Positions 1-19,548 of a DNA stretch of 21,645 bases are shown piece after piece; position 1 is the stretch's first letter, and the number at the start of each line of letters is the position of its first letter. The translations under genes and the position numbers were made by a program. The stretch covers positions 1 through 21,645 of the IMG/VR virus record IMGVR_UViG_3300020055_000181. The stretch is one strand, 5' to 3'. This stretch comes from a virus. The notes under the pieces were generated by a model. It was not told the DNA's origin. It worked only from the letters and a program-made list of their open reading frames with translations, and did no database searches.

Positions 1-492
1 GCAGATGCTTACTTATCATCAAATACAGCACACCTAAGTGGAACACAAACATTTAGTGGAGCTAAAACATTCTCAGCAGCAGTTAATATTTCTGACTCAA
101 CCGCTTCAACAACTAAAACAACAGGAGCTCTTATAGTAACTGGTGGTGTTGGTATTAGTGGGGCATTGAATGTAGGTGGTGATGTTGTAGCATACGCATC
201 ATCAGATGAAAGATTAAAAGATAATATAGAACTTATCTCTAACCCAATAGAAAAAGTTCAATCTCTAAAAGGTGTAACTTGGAATTGGAACGAAAATGCA
301 GATGAATTACAACAATCTTTACCAAATGTAGGGGTTATTGCACAAGATGTTGAGAAAGTTCTTCCACAATTAGTAACTGATAGAGATAATGGTTTTAAAG
401 GTGTAGATTATGCCAAACTTACCGGTCTCTTGATAGAAGCTATTAAGGAACAACAAAAACAAATTGACGAATTAAAGTCAAAAATACAATAA
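1..492 (+). CDS. Tail fibre protein, C-terminal part with S74 intramolecular chaperone (partial, 5' end outside window)
   Basis: The reading frame is open from base 1, so this is the last 163 residues of a longer fibre or spike. The first ~65 residues are low-complexity Ser/Thr/Gly-rich fibre sequence with a TGALIVTGGVGISGALNVGG segment typical of phage fibre shafts. From residue 68 comes a peptidase S74 (endosialidase-type) chaperone domain: the SDERLKDNI motif supplies the Ser68-Lys73 dyad that in known S74 proteins performs autocleavage just before the Ser. It is followed by the GVIAQDVEKVLPQ and VDYAKLTGLLIEAIKEQ motifs and a terminal coiled coil. By family knowledge the domain trimerises the fibre and is then released, so the mature protein should end near residue 67 of this fragment. 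A hairpin terminator follows. The domain is confident; the identity of the upstream fibre is unknown. Confidence 0.93.
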   Translation, partial: ADAYLSSNTAHLSGTQTFSGAKTFSAAVNISDSTASTTKTTGALIVTGGVGISGALNVGGDVVAYASSDERLKDNIELISNPIEKVQSLKGVTWNWNENADELQQSLPNVGVIAQDVEKVLPQLVTDRDNGFKGVDYAKLTGLLIEAIKEQQKQIDELKSKIQ

Positions 493-2063: not shown

Positions 2064-2837
2064 ATGTCAGTAACAGTAAAAGGTAGTACAATACACCATA
2101 GTACAAAAATAAATCCATCAATCACACTTGATTCTTTACAATTATATTATGATGTTGGTAATCGAAATTCATATGTAAGTGGTACAACACTTACTAATAT
2201 GGCTCCAAGTATTTCATCTAATGGAGTTAATGGTACTTTGGATAACTCATCAATGGTACAAACACCAGCAAATAAACATCCATATATTCAAATTGAAACA
2301 GATGATGGTGCAAATCTTAAAAGAATAGCATTAAGTTCTACAATTTCATTAGATACAGATAGTAACAACAGTACAATGTCAGTTTGGTTTTGGTCAGATT
2401 ACGATTCAACTGGTCAATATTCATCATCTCATGCACTTTTTGGTGGAAAATACACAAACTATTGGGCAGTAAAAAACAATTCAGCTACTTCTTACATTAC
2501 TGAAGCAGAAACTAATGGTGGAGTTGATGGAAACCATGATTACTTTGCAAATGGTGAAAGTTTAATATTTGGTGGTTGGAACAATTGGACTGTTGTATGG
2601 AGTGGTGGTAATGCACAAAATTATATAAATGGTTCAAATGTAGGTTCATCTTATGCAATGGCAACTAATTCAGTATTCTCATATAATACGATAGGTTCTA
2701 CTTCAACAGGTAGTGGTGGTGGAGATAGAGGTGGAACTTGGAGATTTGGTGGTTTATTACTTTATAACAAAGCACTATCAACTGCAGAATTAGACCAAAA
2801 TCATAAAGTATTTCAATTAAAATTTAATAGAGGTTAA
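2064..2837 (+). CDS. LamG / concanavalin A-like lectin-fold structural protein
   Basis: 257-aa protein starting 2 nt after the upstream stop. It opens with a short N-terminal strand region, then DSLQLYYDVGNRNSY, the usual entry of LamG-type jelly-roll modules on phage and bacterial adhesins. The body is rich in Trp, Asn, Ser and Gly (MSVWFWSDYD, GGWNNWTVVWSGGNAQNYING) and it closes with LLLYNKALSTAELDQNH, the characteristic LamG_3 end motif. By family knowledge such domains bind glycans; here it is probably a virion-displayed adhesin or fibre tip. It lies between a fibre gene and a glycosyltransferase, and its stop overlaps the next start (TAATG). No catalytic residues are recognised. The fold is fairly sure; the binding target is unknown. 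Confidence 0.8.
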   Translation: MSVTVKGSTIHHSTKINPSITLDSLQLYYDVGNRNSYVSGTTLTNMAPSISSNGVNGTLDNSSMVQTPANKHPYIQIETDDGANLKRIALSSTISLDTDSNNSTMSVWFWSDYDSTGQYSSSHALFGGKYTNYWAVKNNSATSYITEAETNGGVDGNHDYFANGESLIFGGWNNWTVVWSGGNAQNYINGSNVGSSYAMATNSVFSYNTIGSTSTGSGGGDRGGTWRFGGLLLYNKALSTAELDQNHKVFQLKFNRG

Positions 2838-3841
2838 TGTACGATGTTTATTACACAACTGGTGGAGGCCCATGGGTAAACGCCGGAACTGATACTTGGG
2901 TAAATCTATGGATGGAATTGGTTGCACCTAAATTAGATGTAAAACCAATTCTTTTAATTCATAGAAACAAACCCAAAGGTCATGAAGATTATCAATTTCC
3001 AATTGAAACATATTGGCATGGTGAAAATATAGAAAAGTTTGAAGAACTATGTAGGGGTGCAAGACGAATTAATATATTACATGGACATTATACTCCAATG
3101 AGATGTATAGAAGATAATAAAGATAAAATTCATTCAAATGTATTACATAATTCGGTAGACCATGTTTTAAAATCACAAACATTTACAGATGCTTCATTAG
3201 GTTGGCATCCTTTTATTGATTCAAGTTGGGAACAACAAGTATCAGATTGGGCCAAAACAAATATATGGATTGGATTATATAAAATACCATATGATAATAT
3301 AAACATTAAAAATTTCTATGAGTTTAAACACAACAAACTTTTAAGTAAATCAACTAAATTGGGATTTGCTTCAAGATGCGAAGGTAGAAAAAATCCACAT
3401 TATTTAGACAGAAAAGAATCTTTTATTTTTACAAATTCATCTGAATTTAAAATTATTTGGAAAAATGGAGTAAAGGTAGATGTTAGTAAATCAAAAATAT
3501 ATCATTATGATTCTGAATTTAAAGATATATTTTATAATATGGATTGGGGAATATCTCATTCATGTTTTTCGGTAGAACCTTTTGGATATGGTATATTTGA
3601 AGCAGTTGATAGGGGTAAATTACCTATTATTCATAAAGAATGGTGTAGAGAATTGAAGTATCCTTATAGAGCTTCGACTAAAAAAGAATTTGATGATATT
3701 TATATTAAGATAGTAAACTCTTCTTATGAAGAAAAAAATAAATGGTTTTTACACATAAAAGAATATATGATTGATGAATTTTCTGATAAAGATTATTGGA
3801 TTGATTCATTATTACATATTTATAATAGTTTAGGAGAATAA
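2837..3841 (+). CDS. GT-B fold glycosyltransferase (family 1/4-like) in the fibre operon
   Basis: 334-aa protein. Its N-terminus has a Gly-rich loop with a nearby polar stretch (TTGGGPWVNAGTDTWVNLW), as in GT-B enzymes. ASRCEGRKN (~178-186) resembles the Arg/Lys donor-phosphate-binding region. The clearest signature is EPFGYGIFE (247-255), the E-x7-E motif of retaining GT-B glycosyltransferases, followed by GKLPII. The expected reaction is transfer of a sugar from a nucleotide-sugar donor; the acceptor is not visible. It overlaps the lectin gene by one base (TAATG) and abuts the Hint gene, so it is translated with virion adhesins. That suggests, by inference, glycosylation of fibre proteins rather than DNA. 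The sequence is more AT-rich and Lys/Ile-rich than the flanking fibre genes, which is compatible with separate acquisition. It could alternatively modify host surface glycans. Confidence 0.78.
   Translation: MYDVYYTTGGGPWVNAGTDTWVNLWMELVAPKLDVKPILLIHRNKPKGHEDYQFPIETYWHGENIEKFEELCRGARRINILHGHYTPMRCIEDNKDKIHSNVLHNSVDHVLKSQTFTDASLGWHPFIDSSWEQQVSDWAKTNIWIGLYKIPYDNINIKNFYEFKHNKLLSKSTKLGFASRCEGRKNPHYLDRKESFIFTNSSEFKIIWKNGVKVDVSKSKIYHYDSEFKDIFYNMDWGISHSCFSVEPFGYGIFEAVDRGKLPIIHKEWCRELKYPYRASTKKEFDDIYIKIVNSSYEEKNKWFLHIKEYMIDEFSDKDYWIDSLLHIYNSLGE
3815..3836 (+). promoter_or_regulatory. Possible late promoter plus ribosome-binding site for the Hint gene
   Basis: CATATTTATA (3815-3824) differs by one base from the TATATTTATA motif repeated upstream of tail genes and, like the copy at 8055, is followed by ATAGT. 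It lies 19 nt upstream of the Hint gene start, inside the last codons of the glycosyltransferase. AGGAG (3832-3836) is a good ribosome-binding site six bases before ATG. The promoter role is speculative. Confidence 0.35.
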
Positions 3842-3842
3842 T

Positions 3843-4550
3843 ATGCCAACACTTACATCTGGAGATACACTTAGTTTAAATAATTTAGCAGGAGCAACTG
3901 GAAATACTCAAGGAGCTAATGTATCATTGGGAACAATTAAAGGTTCACCATCTGCTGGTGATGATATTGGATTATCAACATTCGCAGTAGATTCAGTAGA
4001 TTCAGTAACTGGATATACCTATTTAGTAGAATCTACTTCAGATACATATGATATGACTTTTACAAGTCCTGGAACAAACTTTGGAATAATATCCGGCTCT
4101 TCGGGTAATTTTACATGGGGAGTAACTGGTGGTAGTTACATTTCTGTAAGTGGAACACCTACATTTAGAGCTACATTATCAGCAGGAGCTATGAACCCAC
4201 AATCTCCAAGTTCTCAAACATCATTATTATCTGCACAATCACATACCATATCTGCTACTTTTGCTGATGGATATAACGACCATATTGGAAGTGGTAATGG
4301 ATATAATGTTCCAAGAACAAAGGCAGTATATTCAATTGATACATATGATGGAAACACTGCATTATGTTTAACTTCAGATTCACCAATATTAAAAGCAGAT
4401 GGAACAATTGTAGAGGCGGGTGAATTAGAAGAAGGAGATATTTTAGATGGATATGCATTAGCAGGATTATCATCTGATTCCGATGGAGATTTCTTAGAAT
4501 GGAATGCTGAAACGCAGGATTATCATCTGATTCTGATGGAGATTTCTTAG
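3843..4550 (+). CDS. Hint/FN3 virion protein, 5' part of a frame-broken gene
   Basis: As it stands this frame encodes 235 aa. Residues 1-~170 are Ser/Thr/Gly-rich beta-type fibre sequence without a recognised family. At Cys175 a Hint (hedgehog/intein) domain begins: CLTSDSPILKADGT followed by AGELEEGD, the N-terminal splicing block. The frame then enters a 53-bp tandem duplication (4461-4566), loses register and stops at 4550 after the aberrant tail QDYHLILMEIS. Removing one copy restores a 433-aa protein ending at 5197, with the rest of the Hint domain and a fibronectin-III domain. AGGAG lies 6 nt before the ATG. The gene starts 1 nt after the glycosyltransferase stop. The duplication may be an assembly artefact, so the true gene is probably intact. 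Confidence 0.82.
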   Translation: MPTLTSGDTLSLNNLAGATGNTQGANVSLGTIKGSPSAGDDIGLSTFAVDSVDSVTGYTYLVESTSDTYDMTFTSPGTNFGIISGSSGNFTWGVTGGSYISVSGTPTFRATLSAGAMNPQSPSSQTSLLSAQSHTISATFADGYNDHIGSGNGYNVPRTKAVYSIDTYDGNTALCLTSDSPILKADGTIVEAGELEEGDILDGYALAGLSSDSDGDFLEWNAETQDYHLILMEIS

Positions 4551-4566
4551 AATGGAATGCTGAAAC
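4461..4566 (+). repeat. 53-bp direct tandem duplication (two copies)
   Basis: Copy 1 spans 4461-4513 and copy 2 spans 4514-4566. They start GCAGGATTAT and end GGAATGCTGAAAC. They are identical except at the 21st base (C at 4481, T at 4534), a synonymous change within Ser-Asp-Ser-Asp-Gly codons. Since 53 is not a multiple of three, the second copy shifts the frame of the Hint gene. Confidence 0.97.
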
Positions 4567-5197
4567 GCTTGATGCAACACCAAAAGAAGTTACAGTAGTT
4601 AGTGTTATTTATTCTTTTGCTCAAAGATACTATAATATTAATGATGGTGAAATCACTGCAACTGGTGAACATCCATTTTTAGTAAAAGATGTTATAAGTG
4701 GTGATTATAAATTTAAAGAAATTATTACAATAGAAGAAGGTGATAAACTTATTAAACAAGGAACAAGTGGTATCGAAGAAGTAGAGGTAATATCTAAAGT
4801 TGCTGTAAATGAAACAACAGAGATTGTATCAATTGATGTTGAAGAACAAGATACTTATTTAGTTAATGGATATATTTCACATAATAAAGGTACAAGTGGT
4901 TCTCATACTGATTTAGGAGCATCATCAGCACCTACTGGATTATCATATTCATCACCATCTGTATCATGGACAGCTCCATCATCAACAGGTGATACTGGTA
5001 TTACAGGTTATGATTTCCAAATTGATAACGATTCTAACTTTGGTTCACTTATTGCAGATGTTTCAGAGTGGAGTTCAACTTCGGTTGAAGTATTAGTTGG
5101 ATATTCATTATCACCAGGTACTACATATTATTTTAGAGTAAGAGCGATTGACCATGGATTAAAATCTTCATGGGCATCATTCTCATTTACGGCATAA
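4511..5197 (+). pseudogene. Hint/FN3 virion protein, 3' part (rest of Hint domain plus fibronectin-III), out of frame
   Basis: This frame is open from 4511 to the TAA at 5195-5197 (228 codons) and has no recognisable start of its own, so it is the continuation of the gene beginning at 3843. It carries TGEHPF (codons 4661-4675), matching the intein block B T-x-x-H, and the C-terminal block DTYLVNGYISHN (ending at Asn codon 4883-4885). In the restored 433-aa protein these are His259 and Asn330. The residue after Asn is Lys, not Cys/Ser/Thr, so classical intein splicing is not expected. A-type bacterial intein-like domains, which tolerate other residues, or simple autocleavage fit better. From about 4912 a fibronectin type III domain follows (APTGLSY, VSWTAP, ITGYDFQI, TYYFRVRA). 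It is probably a surface-exposed adhesin or tail accessory protein. Confidence 0.85.
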
Positions 5198-5659: not shown

Positions 5660-8032
5660 ATGGCAGAAAAAATTGTATCACCTGGTGTATTTACGAGAGA
5701 AAATGACCTTTCTTTCTTAGCACAAGGGATTGGAGAAATCGGAGCAGCCGTAATTGGACCTTTCCATAAAGGACCTGCATTCGTACCAACCGTTGTCAAT
5801 ACACAATCAGAATTTGAAGAAATATTCGGTACACCTGATGGAACTTACTATACAGGATATACCGTACAAAATTATTTAAGAGAAGCAGGAACTGTTACTA
5901 TCGTAAGAGTTGGTAATACTGGTGGATATACTGAAGTTGGACCGGCAGCAATTGTTGTTAGTGGTTCTAATGGAGGAGAGAAGTTAGTAGGAGTTTTAAA
6001 TACCACTCACTTATGGGATAGTGCAACCGGTGTAACAGCATCTATTGATTCACAAATATCTCAATCAGCTTTTTCAATTGAACTAAGTGGTTCAGATTCA
6101 GCTTACAATACATCAGTATCAGCATCTGTACTTCCAACTGCAGGAAATGATTTATCAGATGTATTTGGAGAATCTCCAAGAGGTTCTAAAGGTGCATATG
6201 CATACAAGTACTTTGAAAATGCAGCAACTAACGAATCTGGTAACATCACTTCAAGTGGTTCACAAGTAGTATTAGTGGATTTAGGAAACCAAGTTTTCAC
6301 AAACGATATTCAACACGCATCAACTCCTTGGATTAAATCTCAGTTGATTTCAGGTGAAAGACATGATTTATTTAGATTCCATACTTTAGGTGATGGTTCA
6401 AACTATAATAAAGAATATAAAATTTCATTATTTAATGTAAAGGCGGCAGGTTCAAATAATTCTACTGATTACTCAACTTTCTCAATCGCAGTTAGAGGAT
6501 ACTCTGATACAGATAAGAGACCAGTAATCTTAGAAACATTCAATAACTTGAACTTAGACCCTGCATCTCCAAACTACATTAAAAAAGTAATCGGTGATAG
6601 AAATCTTGTTATCGATGCAAATGGAAAACAAACAGAAAATGGTGATTATACAAATCGTTCTAAACACATTAGAGTAGAATGTAAACCAGAAGGTTCGTTC
6701 CCAATCGTGGCAGGACCATTTGGACATGCTAAGTATCTATCACCAATCTCAGGTTCAGATTCAATAACTCCATCGGTTGTATTCTCAACTGGTTCTGCTG
6801 ATAACACTTCATCAAGTGGTGTTAAGTATAGTGGTATTGATTTAGAATCAACATTAGTAAAAGTTGATAATGGACATTTCTTATCACCAATACCTGTATC
6901 TGCAGGATATGGTTCAAATGATGTGTTTGCATTTGATGGAACAGTATCTATCAATAATGGAACATACTCATTCGGATTTGAATTAACAGGTTCAAATGCA
7001 ACTGATGTTAATAAAAGACAATTCGTAGTTGGATTCCAAGAAGGATTTGATGGTGAATCACCAACTACTGAAAAGGCACTTGCTGGTTCATCTGCTAACT
7101 TTGGTAGTGGTAACTCACAAGGATTTGATTTATCAACTTCAACAGCAGTTGGTTCAGTTGCTTATGTAAGAGCAATCAACGCAGTATCTAACCCAGATGA
7201 TTTCGATATCAACTTAGTAACTGCACCTGGTATTGTTCGTAGACACCACTCTTATGTATTTGATAAGATTGTTGATATGGTAGAGGCTAGAGAAGATGCT
7301 TTCTTCATCGGTGATGTAGTTGGTGTAACTTACAACTCTGCAAATGGACAAGTTTCAACAGATACTATTTCACAGGCTGTTGAACAGGCTGGTAACTTAG
7401 ATTCTAACTATGTTGGAACTTACTACCCATGGGTTAAAACAATCGATTCAAGAACTAACAGATTAACTGCAGTTCCACCATCAGTATTGATGCCTGGAAT
7501 ATATGCTGCTAACGATGCTGTTGCTGCTGAATGGTTCGCACCCGCTGGTTTAAATAGAGGTGGTATCGTAGGTGCGGTATCTGTATTAAACAGATTAACA
7601 CATGCTGAAAGAGATACACTATATGAAGGAAAAGTTAACCCAATCGCTTCGTTCCCTGGAGAAGGTATCGTTGCTTTTGGACAAAAAACTTTACAAGATA
7701 AGGCATCCGCACTTGATAGAATCAATGTTAGAAGATTAATGATTAAAGTTAAGAAGTATATTGCTTCAACTTCAAGATACTTAGTATTCGAACAAAATAC
7801 TTCTCAAACAAGAAGTAGATTCTTGAATACTGTTAACCCTTATTTAGAAGGAATACAACAAAGACAAGGACTTTATGCTTTTAGAGTAGTAATGGATGAA
7901 ACTAATAACACACCTGATGTAATCGATAGAAACATCTTGGCTGGACAGATTTTCTTACAACCAACGAAAACTGCTGAATTCATCGTGTTAGATTTCAACA
8001 TTCTACCAACAGGAGCTTCGTTCTCGGCATAA
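5660..8032 (+). CDS. Contractile tail sheath protein (T4 gp18-like)
   Basis: 790-aa sheath subunit. The N-terminus SPGVFTRENDLSF then VIGPFHKGPAFVP and FEEIFGTPDGTYYTGYTVQNYL is diagnostic of the phage tail sheath family. The C-terminal ~200 residues (PAGLNRGGIVGAV, VNPIASFPGEGIVAFGQKTL, DRINVRRLMIKVKKYI, FEQNTSQTRSRF, TVNPYLEGIQQRQGLYAF, AEFIVLDFNI) match the conserved domain that forms the inner sheath lattice and contracts around the tube. It is longer than T4 gp18 (659 aa). The extra length lies in the Ser/Gly-rich middle (~90-540), probably an exposed domain. It is preceded by AAGGAG and its own promoter motif, and followed directly by the tube gene, as in T4. Very confident. Confidence 0.97.
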   Translation: MAEKIVSPGVFTRENDLSFLAQGIGEIGAAVIGPFHKGPAFVPTVVNTQSEFEEIFGTPDGTYYTGYTVQNYLREAGTVTIVRVGNTGGYTEVGPAAIVVSGSNGGEKLVGVLNTTHLWDSATGVTASIDSQISQSAFSIELSGSDSAYNTSVSASVLPTAGNDLSDVFGESPRGSKGAYAYKYFENAATNESGNITSSGSQVVLVDLGNQVFTNDIQHASTPWIKSQLISGERHDLFRFHTLGDGSNYNKEYKISLFNVKAAGSNNSTDYSTFSIAVRGYSDTDKRPVILETFNNLNLDPASPNYIKKVIGDRNLVIDANGKQTENGDYTNRSKHIRVECKPEGSFPIVAGPFGHAKYLSPISGSDSITPSVVFSTGSADNTSSSGVKYSGIDLESTLVKVDNGHFLSPIPVSAGYGSNDVFAFDGTVSINNGTYSFGFELTGSNATDVNKRQFVVGFQEGFDGESPTTEKALAGSSANFGSGNSQGFDLSTSTAVGSVAYVRAINAVSNPDDFDINLVTAPGIVRRHHSYVFDKIVDMVEAREDAFFIGDVVGVTYNSANGQVSTDTISQAVEQAGNLDSNYVGTYYPWVKTIDSRTNRLTAVPPSVLMPGIYAANDAVAAEWFAPAGLNRGGIVGAVSVLNRLTHAERDTLYEGKVNPIASFPGEGIVAFGQKTLQDKASALDRINVRRLMIKVKKYIASTSRYLVFEQNTSQTRSRFLNTVNPYLEGIQQRQGLYAFRVVMDETNNTPDVIDRNILAGQIFLQPTKTAEFIVLDFNILPTGASFSA

Positions 8033-8090: not shown

Positions 8091-8582
8091 ATGGCAGAAG
8101 TATTAGAATTTAACGATATGTTCTATACCAATTTCGAACCAAAGATGAAGAATAGATTCATCATGGAAATCGATGGTATTCCTTCATATCTTATTAAAAC
8201 AGCTAACAGACCTTCAATTCAGTTTGAAACTGTAACACTTGACCATATCAACGTTAAGAGAAAACTTAAAGGTAAGGGTGAATGGCAAGATGTTGAAATC
8301 AGTCTTTATGACCCAATCGTTCCAAGTGGTGCTCAAGCAGTGATGGAATGGGTTAGATTATCTCACGAATCTCTAACTGGTAGAGATGGATATGCAGATT
8401 TCTATAAAAAAGATATTCAATGTTATATGTTAGGACCTGTTGGTGATAAAATTGAACAATGGACTCTAAAAGGTGCTTTCATCAACAATGCAGTGTTCAA
8501 CGATTTAGATTGGGCTAATGCCACAGACCCAGCAGAAATCACTCTAACACTTTCTTATGATTACGCAATTTTAGAATTCTAA
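8091..8582 (+). CDS. Tail tube protein (T4 gp19-like)
   Basis: 163 aa, the same length as T4 gp19. Family features visible are EFNDMFYTNFEPKMKNRFIM at the N-terminus, the GIPSYLIKTANRPSI segment, the KRKLKGKGEWQDVEISLYDP strand pair, and the C-terminal ITLTLSYDYAILEF. The protein stacks as hexameric rings to form the inner tube around which the sheath assembles, with DNA passing through after contraction. Order sheath then tube is as in T4. It has its own promoter motif and ribosome-binding site and is followed by a strong terminator, so it can be produced at high level independently. Very confident. Confidence 0.97.
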   Translation: MAEVLEFNDMFYTNFEPKMKNRFIMEIDGIPSYLIKTANRPSIQFETVTLDHINVKRKLKGKGEWQDVEISLYDPIVPSGAQAVMEWVRLSHESLTGRDGYADFYKKDIQCYMLGPVGDKIEQWTLKGAFINNAVFNDLDWANATDPAEITLTLSYDYAILEF

Positions 8583-8701: not shown

Positions 8702-9472
8702 ATGGCAAAATTTGATTTTCCAACCGAAATCGTAGATTTACCATCAAAAGGTAAACTATATCCAGAAGGACACCCGTTATCAAAGGGTACGGTGGAGATT
8801 AAGTATATGACAGCTCGTGAAGAGGATATACTTGCTTCCCAAAATTTGATAAGAAAGGGGGTGGTGCTTGATAAGTTGTTCGAATCTGTTGTAGTAGAAG
8901 AAGGTTTAGATATTGGTGATATTTTCATCGGTGATAAAAACGCTATTTTACTTGCAACTCGTATCTTAGGATATGGAAAAGATTATCAAGTAGAAGTTAC
9001 CGACCCATTTACAGGAGAAACCCAAAAAGAAGTAATCGATTTATCACAAATTCAGATTAAAGAAGTAAATGAAAACTTATTATCATCTGATAATAGATAT
9101 TCAATTACTTTACCTGTATCTAAGAAAGAGGTGGTGTTAAAATTACTAACACACAAAGATGAACAAGATATTAATTCTGAAATTCAAGCACTACAAAGAT
9201 TACAGAAAAAAGGTCAAGATGCTGTTTCACAAGAAATGTCTACAAGATTAAGATATATCATTCAAGAAATAGATGGTAATACTGATAGAGGATTTATCAA
9301 CAATTATGTAAAAAATAACCTTTTAGCAAGAGAATCTAAGTTTATTAGAGATTATATCAGAGAAATCTCACCAGATTTAGATTTAAAATATCAGTTTACA
9401 TCTGATATTACGGGAGAAACGGAGGCTCTCGATATCCCCTTTGGGGTTGGGTTTTTTTACCCTTCCGAGTGA
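8702..9472 (+). CDS. T4_baseplate family protein (gp26-like), probable first half of a frameshift pair
   Basis: 256-aa protein with the T4_baseplate/gp26 family signature: VDLPSKGKLYPEGHPLSKG then VEIKYMTAREEDILAS, NLIRKGVVLDKL, then ILLATRILGYGKDYQVEVTDPFTGE. The C-terminal half is helical and basic. It ends GVGFFYPSE. T4 gp26 acts in baseplate hub assembly. Here the gene lies between the tube and tape measure, where long-tailed phages keep their G/GT tail-assembly chaperone pair. Its 3' end overlaps the next ORF by 32 nt in another frame across a run of seven T (9452-9458), making a +1 or -2 slip to a ~325-aa fusion plausible. Family assignment is good; the precise function (hub assembly or chaperone) is inferred. 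Confidence 0.88.
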   Translation: MAKFDFPTEIVDLPSKGKLYPEGHPLSKGTVEIKYMTAREEDILASQNLIRKGVVLDKLFESVVVEEGLDIGDIFIGDKNAILLATRILGYGKDYQVEVTDPFTGETQKEVIDLSQIQIKEVNENLLSSDNRYSITLPVSKKEVVLKLLTHKDEQDINSEIQALQRLQKKGQDAVSQEMSTRLRYIIQEIDGNTDRGFINNYVKNNLLARESKFIRDYIREISPDLDLKYQFTSDITGETEALDIPFGVGFFYPSE

Positions 9473-9680
9473 GTACTCAATCCAACTTCATAACCAAATT
9501 TGGGAAATGGTTAACTATGGTAATGGATTCACTTGGTCAGAAGTTTATTCCATGCCAATTCATTGGAGAAACTTCTATTTCAAAAAATTATTAGAGGCTA
9601 AGAAAAAAGAAGCTGAAGAATATAAAAAGGCAAACAAAAAAGGTTCACCAAAAGGACCATCAGTAAGAGTGAGGAAATAA
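9441..9680 (+). CDS. Overlapping ORF, probable frameshift extension / gp51-like or GT-like assembly protein
   Basis: 79-aa frame overlapping the gp26-like gene by 32 nt. It has no ATG before 9507, and the conserved-looking core (LHNQIWEMVNYGNGFTWSEV, then MPIHWRNFYFKKLL) begins upstream of that ATG. It is therefore either translated by ribosomal slippage from the upstream gene at the T7 run (9452-9458) or started at a TTG (9441 or 9447). The core, ending in a Lys-rich tail (EAKKKEAEEYKKANKKG), resembles small T4-like phage proteins that follow the gp26 homologue and look like hub-assembly or tail-assembly chaperone partners. The stop codon sits inside a strong terminator hairpin. Coding is well supported by composition and motif; the mode of initiation is not. 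Confidence 0.75.
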   Translation: MGLGFFTLPSEYSIQLHNQIWEMVNYGNGFTWSEVYSMPIHWRNFYFKKLLEAKKKEAEEYKKANKKGSPKGPSVRVRK

Positions 9681-9973: not shown

Positions 9974-12856
9974 ATGAATCAAAAAGAAATAAACGCTGCA
10001 CTTAAAGAGGCTAATGCTTTAAAAAAAGAAGCTCTTAATTTGCTTAATCAGCAAAATCTAAAGAGTGCGGAAGCGGTTGCCAGCTATAAAAAAACCAATA
10101 AAGAATATAAGGCTATTGTTGAAAAAATAAAAAATGTAAATTCAGAAATAAAAGAAGCCAAAGAACAAAATAAAGAATTAATAGATAATTACATTCAACA
10201 AGAAGCTAAATTAAAAGGATTAACGGGATTACAAGCAAGTTTAGTAGATAAAGATAGGGCAAGAATTCAGATAATGGCTAATGCCCAAAATCTTGATGCT
10301 GAAAAAAGAAAAACATTTGAATCTATAGCTTCTTTACAAAACGATTTATTAAATACATCATCAGAAGATGTAGTAACTCAAGCTGCAATAAATAAAAAGT
10401 TAGATGACCATTATGAGTCTTTAGGGCCTACTTTGGGAATTCATGGACAGATAGCAAAAAATTTAAGAGAACAAAGAGATAAAGCACAAGGTATTGCAAA
10501 TATGACAGAGAAACAACAAAAGTTTCTCAATAAACAACTTGCAGTATATGAAGGTATAAAAGATAGTATAGCTGGTGTTCTTGAAACGGCATCATTACTT
10601 ACATCTACTGTTGGTGGTATTGCGGGTTCTTTATTAATTGGAATAGGAGCTGTTGCTACTGAAGTTGGTAAAACTACAAGAGAATTTGGTGGATTTGTTG
10701 GAGGATTGACAGGAGCAACTGGTCAAACAACATTATTAAGTTTAGCATTCAAGGATGCATCTGCAGTTACTAAAGAATTAGCAAATCAATTTGGTGGAGT
10801 TGAAGGTAGTACTTTTAGAACTCGATTAAACACCAACTTGATGGCTGTTAATATGGGTATTAGTGGTGAATCAGCTGCGAAACTTGTTGGTACACTTGCA
10901 AGAACTGGTGGAATGACTGCTCAACAAGCAATGGATTTGGCCGAACAAACAAAACAATTTGCGAAACAACAAGGAGTAATACCATCTCAAGCGATGGAAG
11001 ATATTGCTCAAAACTCAGAATTATTCGCATCATATGGAGCATCAGCAACAGAAGAATTAGCTAAATCAGCAGTTCAAGCCGCAAAACTTGGTGTATCTAT
11101 GAGTACACTTGGTAAAGTAACCGATGGATTACTTGATTTTGAATCATCAATTACAAAAGAATTAGAATTATCCGCAATGTTAGGTAGAAACATTAATCTT
11201 AACAGAGCAAGAGGATTGGCGTTTGAAGGTAAGACTGGAGCAGCGGTTAAAGAAACCATAAAACAACTTGGTGGTGCAGCTGCATTTGAAAAGATGAATG
11301 TTATCCAAAGGAGACAAGCAGCTGAAGCATTAGGTTTATCAGTTGATGAGTTAGATAAGATGGCTAAGAACATGGATAAGTTAAATGATGATGGTTCAAT
11401 GCAACTTTCAACATTTGATACATGGAGTCAATCACTAACCGCATTTGCAAGTGGTCCAATGGGTAAAACACTTAAAGGATTGGGTAGTATTGCAGTTGCA
11501 GCTGGTCAAGCAACACCATTCTTAAAAGATATGGGAATAAATTTAGGAGGAGCTGTAAAATCAACAGGTCAAATTCTTAAAAACATGATGGGGTTGGTTA
11601 AAGAAGGTGCTGCGTTGGCCGCTAAAAAACTTTTTGGTTCTGGCACTATGAGTGCTGCTGGAGGTATGATGGGCAAAGCAGGTAAATGGATTAAAACCTC
11701 AAAAGTAGGACGAGGGGCTGGTAAACTTAAAGATAGATTGATGGCCGGTGTAGGTGGTGGAAATAAACCTTCCGCTTCATCAACAATAGACCCTAAAGCA
11801 GGAGATGGTGCATCTAAATTAAGTAAATCTATTGGTAAAATAAAAATGAATGATGTTTTAAAAGGGGCAGCTGCTTTAGTTATCATAGCTGGAGCAATGT
11901 ATGTTCTTGGTAAAGCATTAAAAGAATTTCAAGGAATAGGATTGGATACATTAGGTATTGCAGGTTTAGCTCTTTTAGGGTTAACTTTATCACTAGCGGC
12001 TGTTGGTGCGATTATGAATTTTGCAGGACCTTGGATTTTAGCAGGAGCAGGTGCTATGATTTTAATAGCAGGAGCTATGTACATTCTTGGTAAAGCATTA
12101 CAAGAAATTGCAAAAGTACCAGATTTTGATTTTGTTTCTCTTGGAAAACAACTATTGGCATTTGGAGCTTTAATTTCACCTTTAGGTTTATTATTCATAC
12201 CATTGAGTCTGGCAGCATTATCATTGGGTATATTAGGTGCTGGTATGGCAGTATTTGGTAAAGGTGTAAGTACATTTCCAACTGGTATTGATTTTGCACA
12301 ACTTGGGAAGGATATAGTGGGTTTTGCTATATCTCTTTCATCTCTTGGTAAATATATCTTCTCACTAACACTTGCCGGTATTGCTCTTGGAATAGCTGGA
12401 GCTGGGTTAGGAGTATTTGGGGCTGGTTTAAGTTTAATACCAGTCGATGTTTTAGATTCTTTAACTAACATGGTAACTAACTTAGTTCCATTAGTAGGTG
12501 GTATATTATCACTTGCAGGTGCTTTTACACTATTAGCTGGTTCACTTGGATTATTAAGTATTGCTGGAATAGCAGCACTACCAACATTAATTGCACTTAG
12601 TGCAGTAGGAATTGGTTTAGGTGCGATTGCTGGATTATTTGGTGGAGGTTCAAGTAAAGAATCCGAAGAGAAAGATGAAGAATCCATTTCAGAATATCAA
12701 ATGATGGTTTTAACAGGATTAACAGAAGTTAGAGATGCTATTAATAATAAAAATATGAATGTTTACTTAGATGGTCAACTTCTAACTGATTTTGTACGAG
12801 CAAATTCAGATGGAGGTGGTAATCAAGGTGCAACATTATTAACTGCGAAGAAATAA
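9974..12856 (+). CDS. Tail tape measure protein
   Basis: 960 aa. Residues 1-~200 are Lys/Glu-rich coiled coil. Residues ~210-510 contain the phage tape-measure core (TREFGGFVGGLTGATGQ, KELANQFGGV, AVNMGISGESAAKLVGTLAR, LARTGGMTAQQAMDLAEQTK, SAVQAAKLGVSMSTLGKVTD). Residues ~630-890 are strongly hydrophobic, with several potential membrane-spanning helices. These include a unit seen four times at 54-60-residue spacing: AGAMYVLGKAL (639), AGAMYILGKAL (699), GAGMAVFGKG (755) and GAGLGVFGAG (809). The C-terminus is polar. By family role it sets tail length and is ejected to aid DNA passage through the cell envelope. At about 1.5 Å per residue the tail would be near 140 nm, longer than T4. GGAG (9962-9965) precedes the ATG. 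Confidence 0.92.
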   Translation: MNQKEINAALKEANALKKEALNLLNQQNLKSAEAVASYKKTNKEYKAIVEKIKNVNSEIKEAKEQNKELIDNYIQQEAKLKGLTGLQASLVDKDRARIQIMANAQNLDAEKRKTFESIASLQNDLLNTSSEDVVTQAAINKKLDDHYESLGPTLGIHGQIAKNLREQRDKAQGIANMTEKQQKFLNKQLAVYEGIKDSIAGVLETASLLTSTVGGIAGSLLIGIGAVATEVGKTTREFGGFVGGLTGATGQTTLLSLAFKDASAVTKELANQFGGVEGSTFRTRLNTNLMAVNMGISGESAAKLVGTLARTGGMTAQQAMDLAEQTKQFAKQQGVIPSQAMEDIAQNSELFASYGASATEELAKSAVQAAKLGVSMSTLGKVTDGLLDFESSITKELELSAMLGRNINLNRARGLAFEGKTGAAVKETIKQLGGAAAFEKMNVIQRRQAAEALGLSVDELDKMAKNMDKLNDDGSMQLSTFDTWSQSLTAFASGPMGKTLKGLGSIAVAAGQATPFLKDMGINLGGAVKSTGQILKNMMGLVKEGAALAAKKLFGSGTMSAAGGMMGKAGKWIKTSKVGRGAGKLKDRLMAGVGGGNKPSASSTIDPKAGDGASKLSKSIGKIKMNDVLKGAAALVIIAGAMYVLGKALKEFQGIGLDTLGIAGLALLGLTLSLAAVGAIMNFAGPWILAGAGAMILIAGAMYILGKALQEIAKVPDFDFVSLGKQLLAFGALISPLGLLFIPLSLAALSLGILGAGMAVFGKGVSTFPTGIDFAQLGKDIVGFAISLSSLGKYIFSLTLAGIALGIAGAGLGVFGAGLSLIPVDVLDSLTNMVTNLVPLVGGILSLAGAFTLLAGSLGLLSIAGIAALPTLIALSAVGIGLGAIAGLFGGGSSKESEEKDEESISEYQMMVLTGLTEVRDAINNKNMNVYLDGQLLTDFVRANSDGGGNQGATLLTAKK

Positions 12857-15669: not shown

Positions 15670-15960
15670 ATGGCAAGTAGATATTCAAATAACAAAACTC
15701 AAAAACTCAAAGATGGTAGAGAGGTATATAAATCAAAGATATATCCAAATATTCCATTAAAGGATAATGATATCTATATCGTTACTCAAACAGGAGATAG
15801 ATTAGATACTCTTGCAAATCAGTTCTATGGAGATTCTTCATTACATTGGATTATATTAGCGGCAAACAATATACACGATGCTCCATTTGCATTTGAAGAT
15901 GGTACTATTCTTAGAATACCTAAAGACTATTTAGAAATTATAAATAATTTTAATAAATAA
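15670..15960 (+). CDS. LysM-like baseplate wedge protein (gp53-like)
   Basis: 96 aa. The LysM-type core spans ~34-86: YIVTQTGDRLDTLANQFYGD, then LHWIILAANNIHDA, ending DGTILRIPKDY. This spacing and the DRLDTLANQFYGD motif are characteristic of gp53-type baseplate wedge and tail protein X-like LysM proteins. T4 gp53 (196 aa) holds the same core, so this is a short version. LysM modules in this setting clip baseplate parts together rather than bind peptidoglycan. It is set 8 nt after the 933-aa protein and 2 nt before the hub-like gene, supporting the baseplate role. Confidence 0.85.
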   Translation: MASRYSNNKTQKLKDGREVYKSKIYPNIPLKDNDIYIVTQTGDRLDTLANQFYGDSSLHWIILAANNIHDAPFAFEDGTILRIPKDYLEIINNFNK

Positions 15961-15962
15961 TT

Positions 15963-18368
15963 ATGTTATTTCCAAACTTATCAAATTTCGAACCAGGTGT
16001 TACTAAACTATTAAACGACCGAAGCGGTAATAATAGAGAAGTAAGTGAATATATGCCGTGGTTAAGAATTGCATCTGCTTATAATAATGGATTGATACTT
16101 GAATCTATTAATTCATCAAATGCCTTTGTGGATACTTACGGTGATAGTGGTAAATCTGGTAGAGTTGGTGTAGATTTTGGAGGAAACAATGTTTATGCAT
16201 TTTCAGAATCAGTTACAACAACAAAGGCTGGTAAAAAAGAATCATATTCAGTTCAAAGAACACCTGAAACAGATAGAATATTTAGACCATCACCTACAAT
16301 TGATGCTTTAAGTTTAACATTTGGTGCAGGTGGATTATCAAGAAAAACTAATTTTTCTATCAAGGCCTTTACATTAAAACAAGCTGAAACACTTCAGAAA
16401 TACTTTGCAGAACCAGGATATACAGTATTAGTTGAATATGGTTGGAATCACCCAAAATCACTTCAACAAAAGGCATCTTTAACTCTTAGTAATGGTGCAT
16501 GTGAAATGGCAAAGTATAATAATTTTATTCATGTTAAAGAAAAGGAACAAAACTCAGATTACAAATATAGTGGATATCTTGGTTTTATAACCAAGAGTGG
16601 TTTAAAAAATTCAGAGGGTGAAACTTATATATTAGATGTTGAACTTACAACAATAGGAGAAATACCAGCATTTTTACAACAACATAAAGGTGGTGATGTT
16701 GATGCGGATAACAAACCAAAAGGAGGATTAAAATTTTCAAAATCAAAAATTAAAGCACAACAACGGTTTTATGCTAAAGGAATTGATTATTTTATTGGCC
16801 GTTCTCTTTTTATGCAAATGTTTAATAGATTACCTCAAGAAAAACAAACACAAAAAGTTAAAAATTTATTGACTGTGGGTAAAGATAGTAGGGGAAAGGG
16901 TTGGGCCCATAAAGGTAATTTTATTAATATGGATGAAAAAATCCGAGAAACTTTAACAGAAAAATTAGAAGGACAAAGTATAAATTCTAAAAAAAATGAT
17001 TATAATGCTAAAATTCCATCAGGTATCCAAATTTTTGATACTTCGAGTTTTATAAGATTAGAACTTGCTTTTGAAATTTTAAATTCTTATGCAGTAGATT
17101 TAACAGAGCGTACAGATAACGCACCACCTTGTTCTGGTGTAAAACCTATGAATTTTAAAATAGAAACCAATTACACATTGTGTAGAGGATTTAAACATAT
17201 GTTTTCTACTGATGTTTCTAAAGTATTTATACCAAATAGAAATACACCTGCATTTGATTTGATAAAGGCATTATCATCAACATCGGAGGTTGAAGGAAAT
17301 TCACCATTTCTTTCGATAAAAAATGGAGTACCTGAAGAAACTGCGGATTTAGACCAATTTGACATAGAGGATGATATGTGTTTTCCACAGGTCAAACCCT
17401 TAAATGAATATAAATGGCCAGATGGTACAATAACTCAAGATTTTGAAGCACATACTTACGGATATTTAAAAGACTTGTTTGTTAATTTTGAATTTTTCTG
17501 TGAAGTATTGGGAAGAAATAATGTTGTTATAAAAGATATATATTTAGAACTTTTAAATGGTATTGCATCCGCAGTTGATAATTATTGGTATTTTGAAATA
17601 GCTCAAACTCCTAATAAACAAGATGCAGATAATCAACTTGAAGTTTATGATAATACACTTTGTTCACCTGATAGAAGTTTATTTGATGAATGTCCTAAAT
17701 TTGTGTCAAGTGGAGTAGACACACCATTTTTAACTTCAAACTTTGATATGGATTTACCAGCTGCGATGAAAAATTCAATAATAGGTCAAAGAAATTCAAC
17801 GAGTGTTAATACGAATAGTGATGGTGCAACTAATGTAAAGTTATCAAATATTTTCAATGTAGAACAAGACCCTGTCTTATCAATTTTAAATTCATTTAAA
17901 CCTGAAAAAGAACCAGCTGATGAAACAGGTGATGAAGAAGAAACACCAGATGAGGATGAAATAAGAAAAGCTAATTTTGAATTATTTTTACAATATGGAA
18001 AAGTAATTACTGGAGTAAAAGATAGAAATGGTGATTATGATATTACCGAAGGAAGTACTTGGATAAATTTTAATACTGCGAATGCAGAAGCGGAATCCGT
18101 TTTACTGGTAGCTGGTTGGACTGATAGAGCTTTATTTAAATTATTATCAAAAGCAACAACTGAATCATCTACAAATGTACTTATTCCAATAAGTTTTGAA
18201 TTTGAAACATTTGGAATAACAGGAATTGTAACAGGTCAAATATTTAAGATAAAAGATTTACCTGCGAAATTTAAACAAAGTGCCTTTCAAGTGGTAGAAG
18301 TAGGACACGAACTTGGGGGTGGTTTATGGAAAACTAAAGTTAAAGGAAAGTTAAGAAATTTCTCATAA
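15963..18368 (+). CDS. Baseplate hub-like structural protein
   Basis: 801 aa. The N-terminal third contains YMPWLRIASAYN, then RPSPTIDALSLTFGAGGLSR, KAFTLKQAETLQKYFAEPG and VLVEYGWNHP, followed by SGYLGFITKSG and YILDVELTTIGEIPAFL. This succession looks like hub proteins (gp27-type) of T4-like phages, where it forms the platform between tube and spike. The C-terminal ~130 residues (VLIPISFEFETFGITGIVTG, DLPAKFKQSAFQVVEVGHEL, GLWKTKVKGKLRNF) match the usual end of hub proteins. In between, ~240-640, sits a less conserved region with an acidic linker (EPADETGDEEETPDEDE). It is larger than T4 gp27 (391 aa). The stop overlaps the next start (TAATG). Hub assignment is moderate. Confidence 0.8.
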   Translation: MLFPNLSNFEPGVTKLLNDRSGNNREVSEYMPWLRIASAYNNGLILESINSSNAFVDTYGDSGKSGRVGVDFGGNNVYAFSESVTTTKAGKKESYSVQRTPETDRIFRPSPTIDALSLTFGAGGLSRKTNFSIKAFTLKQAETLQKYFAEPGYTVLVEYGWNHPKSLQQKASLTLSNGACEMAKYNNFIHVKEKEQNSDYKYSGYLGFITKSGLKNSEGETYILDVELTTIGEIPAFLQQHKGGDVDADNKPKGGLKFSKSKIKAQQRFYAKGIDYFIGRSLFMQMFNRLPQEKQTQKVKNLLTVGKDSRGKGWAHKGNFINMDEKIRETLTEKLEGQSINSKKNDYNAKIPSGIQIFDTSSFIRLELAFEILNSYAVDLTERTDNAPPCSGVKPMNFKIETNYTLCRGFKHMFSTDVSKVFIPNRNTPAFDLIKALSSTSEVEGNSPFLSIKNGVPEETADLDQFDIEDDMCFPQVKPLNEYKWPDGTITQDFEAHTYGYLKDLFVNFEFFCEVLGRNNVVIKDIYLELLNGIASAVDNYWYFEIAQTPNKQDADNQLEVYDNTLCSPDRSLFDECPKFVSSGVDTPFLTSNFDMDLPAAMKNSIIGQRNSTSVNTNSDGATNVKLSNIFNVEQDPVLSILNSFKPEKEPADETGDEEETPDEDEIRKANFELFLQYGKVITGVKDRNGDYDITEGSTWINFNTANAEAESVLLVAGWTDRALFKLLSKATTESSTNVLIPISFEFETFGITGIVTGQIFKIKDLPAKFKQSAFQVVEVGHELGGGLWKTKVKGKLRNFS

Positions 18369-18795: not shown

Positions 18796-19548
18796 ATGGG
18801 TTATTTATCACACGAAGAAAAACAACAACTACTTTTTGATTGGAGATACAAAGGAGTATCTATTTTAAATCTATTAACAGAGGAAGAAGTAGATTTTTAT
18901 GCTGAGGAATTAGAACGAATCAGAGTCCAAAGACAAGAAAATGATACAGATGGACAGTGGGGAGAATATGACCCATATATGTATCCACATAAAGATTCAG
19001 ATAAACTTTCTGAATTAATGAAACATCCTAAAATTATAGAAGCTTGTGAATTTTTAATGCAAGGTAAAATATTTGCTGTACAAACATGGGCTTATTTTAA
19101 ACCACCAGGACAATTAGGTAGAGACCAACACCAAAATATATTTTATACCCAATGTAATAGAAATGAAATTGTAAATATTTCTCTTGCTTTTGATAACCAT
19201 GACCCTAACAATGGTTCTGTTTGGTATTTAGAAGGTTCTCACTTATTAGGAAGATTGCCTATTGAAATTGATGATGAAAGAACAAAATCAAATCCAAAGA
19301 ATTGGAAAAACGAAAGAGGAAAACCTTGTGTATTACCACCAGACCATGGTTTTAAAAAAATAGATGGGTATCTACGAAAAGGTCAAGTAGCATTATTGCA
19401 TTCTAATGTAGTGCATGGGTCTGAAGCTAACAATTCTACAAGATTTAGAAAAGCATTCTTAACAGGATATGTAAAAGAAGGTTCAGATTTCTCAACAGGT
19501 AATCATATGAAAAGAGAACCAATTGATGTTGGTTCAGCAAAAATATAA
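18796..19548 (+). CDS. PhyH-like Fe(II)/2-oxoglutarate dioxygenase homologue with altered metal motif
   Basis: 250 aa with the phytanoyl-CoA dioxygenase layout. The N-terminus has GVSILNLLTEEEVDFYAEEL (entry helix). The mid part has TWAYFKPPGQLGRDQHQN, then NISLAFDNHDPNNGSVWYLEGSH (the beta-barrel core with the PxNG-xxW-xxGSH element). The end has GQVALLHSNVVHGSEAN, then TRFRKAFL. The second metal His (His207) and the 2-oxoglutarate Arg (Arg216/218) are in place. The first metal motif reads His112-Gln-Asn114, whereas the family normally has H-x-D/E. Family members hydroxylate small molecules or modify sugars and antibiotics; the substrate is unknown here. The start codon of the SGNH gene overlaps its stop (TAATG). 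It is not a standard tail gene, so an accessory modification function is inferred. Confidence 0.85.
   Translation: MGYLSHEEKQQLLFDWRYKGVSILNLLTEEEVDFYAEELERIRVQRQENDTDGQWGEYDPYMYPHKDSDKLSELMKHPKIIEACEFLMQGKIFAVQTWAYFKPPGQLGRDQHQNIFYTQCNRNEIVNISLAFDNHDPNNGSVWYLEGSHLLGRLPIEIDDERTKSNPKNWKNERGKPCVLPPDHGFKKIDGYLRKGQVALLHSNVVHGSEANNSTRFRKAFLTGYVKEGSDFSTGNHMKREPIDVGSAKI

Follow-up and report, generated by a model that had tools for sequence, protein, structure and literature searches.

A frame-breaking 53-bp tandem duplication in the Hint-FN3 gene of a T4-like phage contig is most likely an assembly error

Background

In metagenomes, duplicate sequence can be left where overlapping pieces of an assembly join, and co-occurring strains confuse de Bruijn assemblers (PMC7111523). 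False duplications which bear alleles, of the heterotype type, have been described in genome assemblies (PMC9516828). In natural elements such as Borgs, the tandem repeats which lie within genes typically are multiples of three (PMC9879509). A stretch which interrupts a coding sequence can also be skipped by ribosomes: the bypassing of T4 gene 60 concerns a gap of 50 nt, and up to 56 nt are tolerated (PMC11194080). We compare here with these systems a tandem duplication of 53 bp which interrupts a gene of a virus. The whole stretch of DNA that was analysed, hereafter the window, is a linear IMG/VR virus record of 21,645 bp.

Results

The duplication and the broken gene

By its gene content, the window comes from a myovirus of the T4-like kind and covers tail-module genes (Table 1). 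Further fibre-like proteins are encoded upstream of the tail genes, and the broken gene is situated two genes before the sheath, with an ORF of 103 aa in between. The remaining large ORFs of the window are intact. A gene resembling phytanoyl-CoA dioxygenases (PhyH, E = 1.5e-19) adjoins the baseplate genes at 18796-19548, and a similar PhyH-like ORF is present at the corresponding place of contig L129, which is described below. The tail module also includes an ORF of 334 aa (2837-3841) which resembles a glycosyltransferase by eye only and which has no match in Pfam or in PHROG.

Both TRF and a direct scan find a tandem repeat of period 53 at 4461-4566, the two copies of which are identical at 52 of 53 positions. 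When the 53-bp diagonal is followed, the match reaches 55 bp (4461-4515 against 4514-4568). Apart from this repeat, a scan of the 21.6-kb window for exact direct repeats of at least 20 bp with a spacing of 10-499 finds none; hence the 53-bp repeat is far beyond chance. The sole difference between the copies (C4481/T4534) changes TCC into TCT, which both code for Ser, so that it is silent in the coding frame.

In the two-copy gene, the frame which starts at ATG 3843 runs into a TAG within the second copy. A stop at 4508 precedes the C-terminal half in its own frame, which is open from 4511 to 5197; no ATG, GTG or TTG exists in it from 4510 to 5197. Re-initiation of the C-terminal half was considered and rejected, as this frame lacks a start codon. 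The first-pass annotation had reported two adjacent copies differing by one base, a synonymous difference and a Hint-FN3 gene put out of frame, all of which our scans and translations confirm. It had also stated that the removal of one copy gives a protein of 433 aa, and the corresponding gene does exist in two other contigs.

Table 1. Position of the tail genes, of the two copies and of the Hint-FN3 features in the window
Feature	Position	Strand	Remark
Protein with a C-terminal S74 peptidase chaperone domain	1-492		
Broken ORF, 235 aa	3843..4550	+	N-terminal domain and first part of the Hint domain; TAG at 4548-4550
Cys1 of Hint	4365..4367	+	Cys175 in the intact protein of the sisters; invariant across 14 aligned relatives
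Copy 1	4461..4513	+	Extra copy, C at 4481; missing from both sister contigs
Copy 2	4514..4566	+	T at 4534, as in both sister contigs
2-bp GC homology at the join	4514..4515	+	Part of the 55-bp match
C-terminal half, other frame	4514..5197	+	Remainder of Hint and FN3; without its own start codon
His259	4670-4672	+	TxxH motif
His329-Asn330	4880-4885	+	
Fibronectin type III domain	4943..5164	+	PF00041, E = 1.8e-7
Tail sheath	5660-8032		
Tail tube	8091-8582		
T4-type baseplate protein	8702-9472		
gp53	15670-15960		Weak match

Near-identical contigs and other relatives

Two contigs of IMG/VR, from metagenomes other than that of the window, match the entire 21.6-kb window at more than 99.9%: IMGVR_UViG_3300022939_000017 (71,415 bp) and 3300023110_000072 (41,359 bp). 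We call them the sister contigs. Over 21.6 kb the window differs from the former by 7 substitutions and from the latter by 10, and no indel apart from the 53 bp separates the three contigs. Both sister contigs have a single copy, with the T allele, and an intact ORF of 433 aa. The junction of the duplication, GAAACGCAGGATT, is in no other IMG/VR contig searched; the C allele is likewise in no other IMG/VR contig, only T being found elsewhere. The first-pass annotation had called for a comparison with close relatives, and the result goes beyond the single-copy sisters: in a protein search, the frame is unbroken through the region in 32/32 relatives, and neither a second copy nor a vestigial repeat is present at the site in the 14 relatives which were aligned (alignment A1).

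Outside the repeat, only two substitutions are private to the window in 21.6 kb, at 3361 and 5507. They flank the repeat on both sides, and a switch of haplotype at the join, as between two strains, is not seen. The differences between the three near-identical contigs are gathered in tight clusters of 2-4 bases (330-351, 2915-2920, 3065-3070 and 5707-5710), mostly silent where we checked them, and they resemble exchange between strains in short patches more than they resemble single mutations. Another near-identical contig, 3300017957_000725, which comes from another sample, begins at position 4610 of the window, 42 bp past the repeat. This may be a weak sign of a site which assembles poorly.

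The intact protein

The product of the intact gene very likely consists of an N-terminal domain, a Hint domain (intein/hedgehog-type autoprocessing) and an FN3 domain. Besides Cys175, the residues Thr256, His259, His329, Asn330, Lys331 and Gly332 are invariant in 14/14 relatives. Among Hint profiles, TIGR01445 matches 12 of these 14 relatives at E <= 0.01 and PF14890 matches 8 of them. Overall, many relatives are matched by the Intein_splicing, PT-HINT and intein_Nterm profiles, mostly at modest scores. For the intact sister protein, an AlphaFold model (mean pLDDT 71) resembles the structures of BIL2 and of hedgehog Hint domains, with TM values by target of 0.68-0.72. The Cys1, the TxxH motif, the C-terminal His-Asn and the fold which define a Hint domain are all found. 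A splicing intein would have Cys, Ser or Thr after His-Asn; here 14/14 relatives have His-Asn-Lys. As Lys follows His-Asn, classical splicing is not expected. From these residues, self-cleavage of the protein can be predicted as plausible. The invariant catalytic residues, together with the lack of a splicing nucleophile, suggest a predicted self-cleaving tail protein.

In the protein, the repeat corresponds to a loop of low conservation (residues ~207-224). That the protein is a surface protein, as the first-pass annotation called it, may be inferred from its surroundings: the gene belongs to a T4-like tail module, and its C-terminal half matches a virion structural PHROG. At the DNA level the Hint-FN3 gene has no match in isolate phages, and at the protein level isolate phages give only remote matches in the Hint region, to large phages.

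A second contig with duplications

Near-perfect tandem repeats of period 24-299 were sought by a scan of all the fetched IMG/VR loci (0.93 million distinct 31-mers). One other contig, IMGVR_UViG_3300021185_003104 (L129), has an out-of-frame duplication of 47 bp (9559-9652), with an overlap of 2 bp as in the window, and a second, in-frame duplication of 93 bp (10097-10282) about 0.5 kb beyond the first. Every other near-perfect tandem repeat of the scan has a period divisible by 3 and leaves the frame open. A sister of L129, contig L124, has neither duplication and is otherwise 99.6-100% identical to it. Over 11.5 kb, 4 of the 5 substitutions between them are within the duplication-bearing stretch (simulated P ~1e-4, for a region which was picked after seeing the data). 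This clustering, associated with duplications, is the pattern expected when pieces from variant strains are joined with their overlaps left in, and the duplications of L129 look like the same kind of assembly error. The gene which is broken by the 47-bp duplication is an apparent relative of the window gene at 15963-18368.

Discussion

We think it highly probable, from the comparison of the contigs, that the duplication is a local assembly error. The virus itself most likely lacks it, and the viral gene very likely encodes the intact protein of 433 aa. Two assembled pieces would have overlapped by about 55 bp, one of them ending with the C variant and the other beginning with the T variant. 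The C variant would have been supplied by a minor strain or by a read error at a contig end. The mismatch would have blocked the overlap, and the pieces, rather than merging, would have been placed end to end across 2 bp. The same stretch would thus have been written twice, which makes the gene appear frameshifted. A mismatch between the pieces would also account for the failure of the assembler to recognise their overlap. It also bears on the age of the repeat. For a duplication which occurred after the split from the sister contigs, the expected base change between the copies is 0.005 when one copy is counted and 0.01 when both are, while pieces from strains of the population (0.03-0.3% apart) are expected to differ within 53 bp at 2-16%. 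A mismatch is improbable in so young a duplication and natural for abutted pieces which carry a variant or an error, and this favours the artefact. The first-pass annotation had thought of concatenated strain variants: the artefact itself is supported by the single-copy sisters, by the mismatch and by the precedent of L129, but no second strain carrying C came to light among the other contigs. One of the k-mer sizes of metaSPAdes is 55. Its coincidence with the length of the 55-bp match is suggestive only: the position of the variant does not fit a simple bubble at k=55.

The duplication could instead be real and very recent, and knock out the Hint-FN3 gene in the strain of the window, an explanation which we find rather unlikely. 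It would have arisen by a template switch across the 2-bp GC homology, with the C change made in one copy later or coupled to this event, and the resulting loss-of-function allele would be an ordinary one, readily reverting by slippage between the 53-bp repeats. The repeat is cleanly tandem and has a microhomology of 2 bp at its join, as real small duplications often do, the other large ORFs of the window are intact and its sequence is otherwise good; moreover, the sisters are from other samples, and a mutant could be confined to the sample of the window. However, this explanation has to account for the absence of the duplication from both near-identical contigs, for a gene which is unbroken in its relatives with invariant catalytic residues, and for a base change which is improbable inside so young a repeat. 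It also has to face the fact that tandem repeats in the ORFs of natural elements typically are multiples of 3, in our scan as in the literature (PMC9879509).

It would be very surprising if the two-copy allele were both real and functional, either because ribosomes bypass the extra 53 nt or because the allele is maintained as an off state from which a self-processing tail protein can be restored. Each of these two versions, taken separately, seems hardly credible to us. The first-pass annotation had put forward, as its alternative, a reversible slipped-strand switch, in which one copy (on) and two copies (off) toggle the surface protein. Direct repeats of 53 bp would presumably collapse by slippage and restore the frame, and the on state is present in the sisters, but this state has only the 2-bp GC repeat: reversion is easy and the forward step is not favoured. 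With only 2 bp of homology in the single-copy state, switching off is no likelier there than at countless other places. As no off state or vestigial repeat is present at the site in any relative (32 relatives, 14 of them aligned) and as the sisters are single-copy, the switch is disfavoured. The other version supposes that the repeat is a coding gap skipped by ribosomes, or a -1 frameshift site, and that the full protein is still made. The 53 nt are within the length tolerated for bypassing of the T4 type, and the codons of copy 1 which are unaffected by the C/T difference have an identical landing codon 53 nt further on in copy 2. Against this, copy 1 has no in-frame stop after any take-off codon, the RNA has a weaker predicted fold than its shuffles have on average (z = +1.36), no slippery heptamer of the form X XXY YYZ is found from 4401 to 4551, and the sisters show that the gene normally lacks the gap.

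The duplication, taken as an assembly error, has little biological importance and is useful as a caution. When the frame in a contig of an uncultivated virus is broken by a tandem copy which carries one mismatch, a comparison with near-identical contigs is a quick check. Counts of pseudogenes, of phase-variable genes or of frameshifts in IMG/VR contigs should be preceded by a screen for such duplications.

Finally, we return to the described systems. As in T4 gene 60, the phage is T4-like, the gap has a similar size (53 against 50 nt) and matching take-off and landing codons are possible; unlike it, the window has no stop after the take-off and no stem-loop signal, and its gap consists of duplicated coding sequence. 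The intact sister protein shares Cys1, TxxH and the C-terminal His-Asn with BIL domains (6y75, BIL2, TM 0.70-0.72 by target) and hedgehog domains (1at0, TM 0.71), but differs by the Lys, in place of Cys, Ser or Thr, which follows His-Asn and by its place within a phage tail-region protein with FN3. The window resembles small real microhomology duplications, being perfectly tandem with a breakpoint homology of 2 bp, and departs from them in that its copies differ although they would have to be younger than the split from sisters which lack the duplication. The described false duplications (PMC7111523, PMC9516828) have Ns between their copies, or are much longer and diploid, whereas the copies of the window abut without Ns. 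With these false duplications the window has in common an extra copy which is missing from independent assemblies of the same population, a consecutive repeat, a variant between the copies and a frame which is broken at the join.
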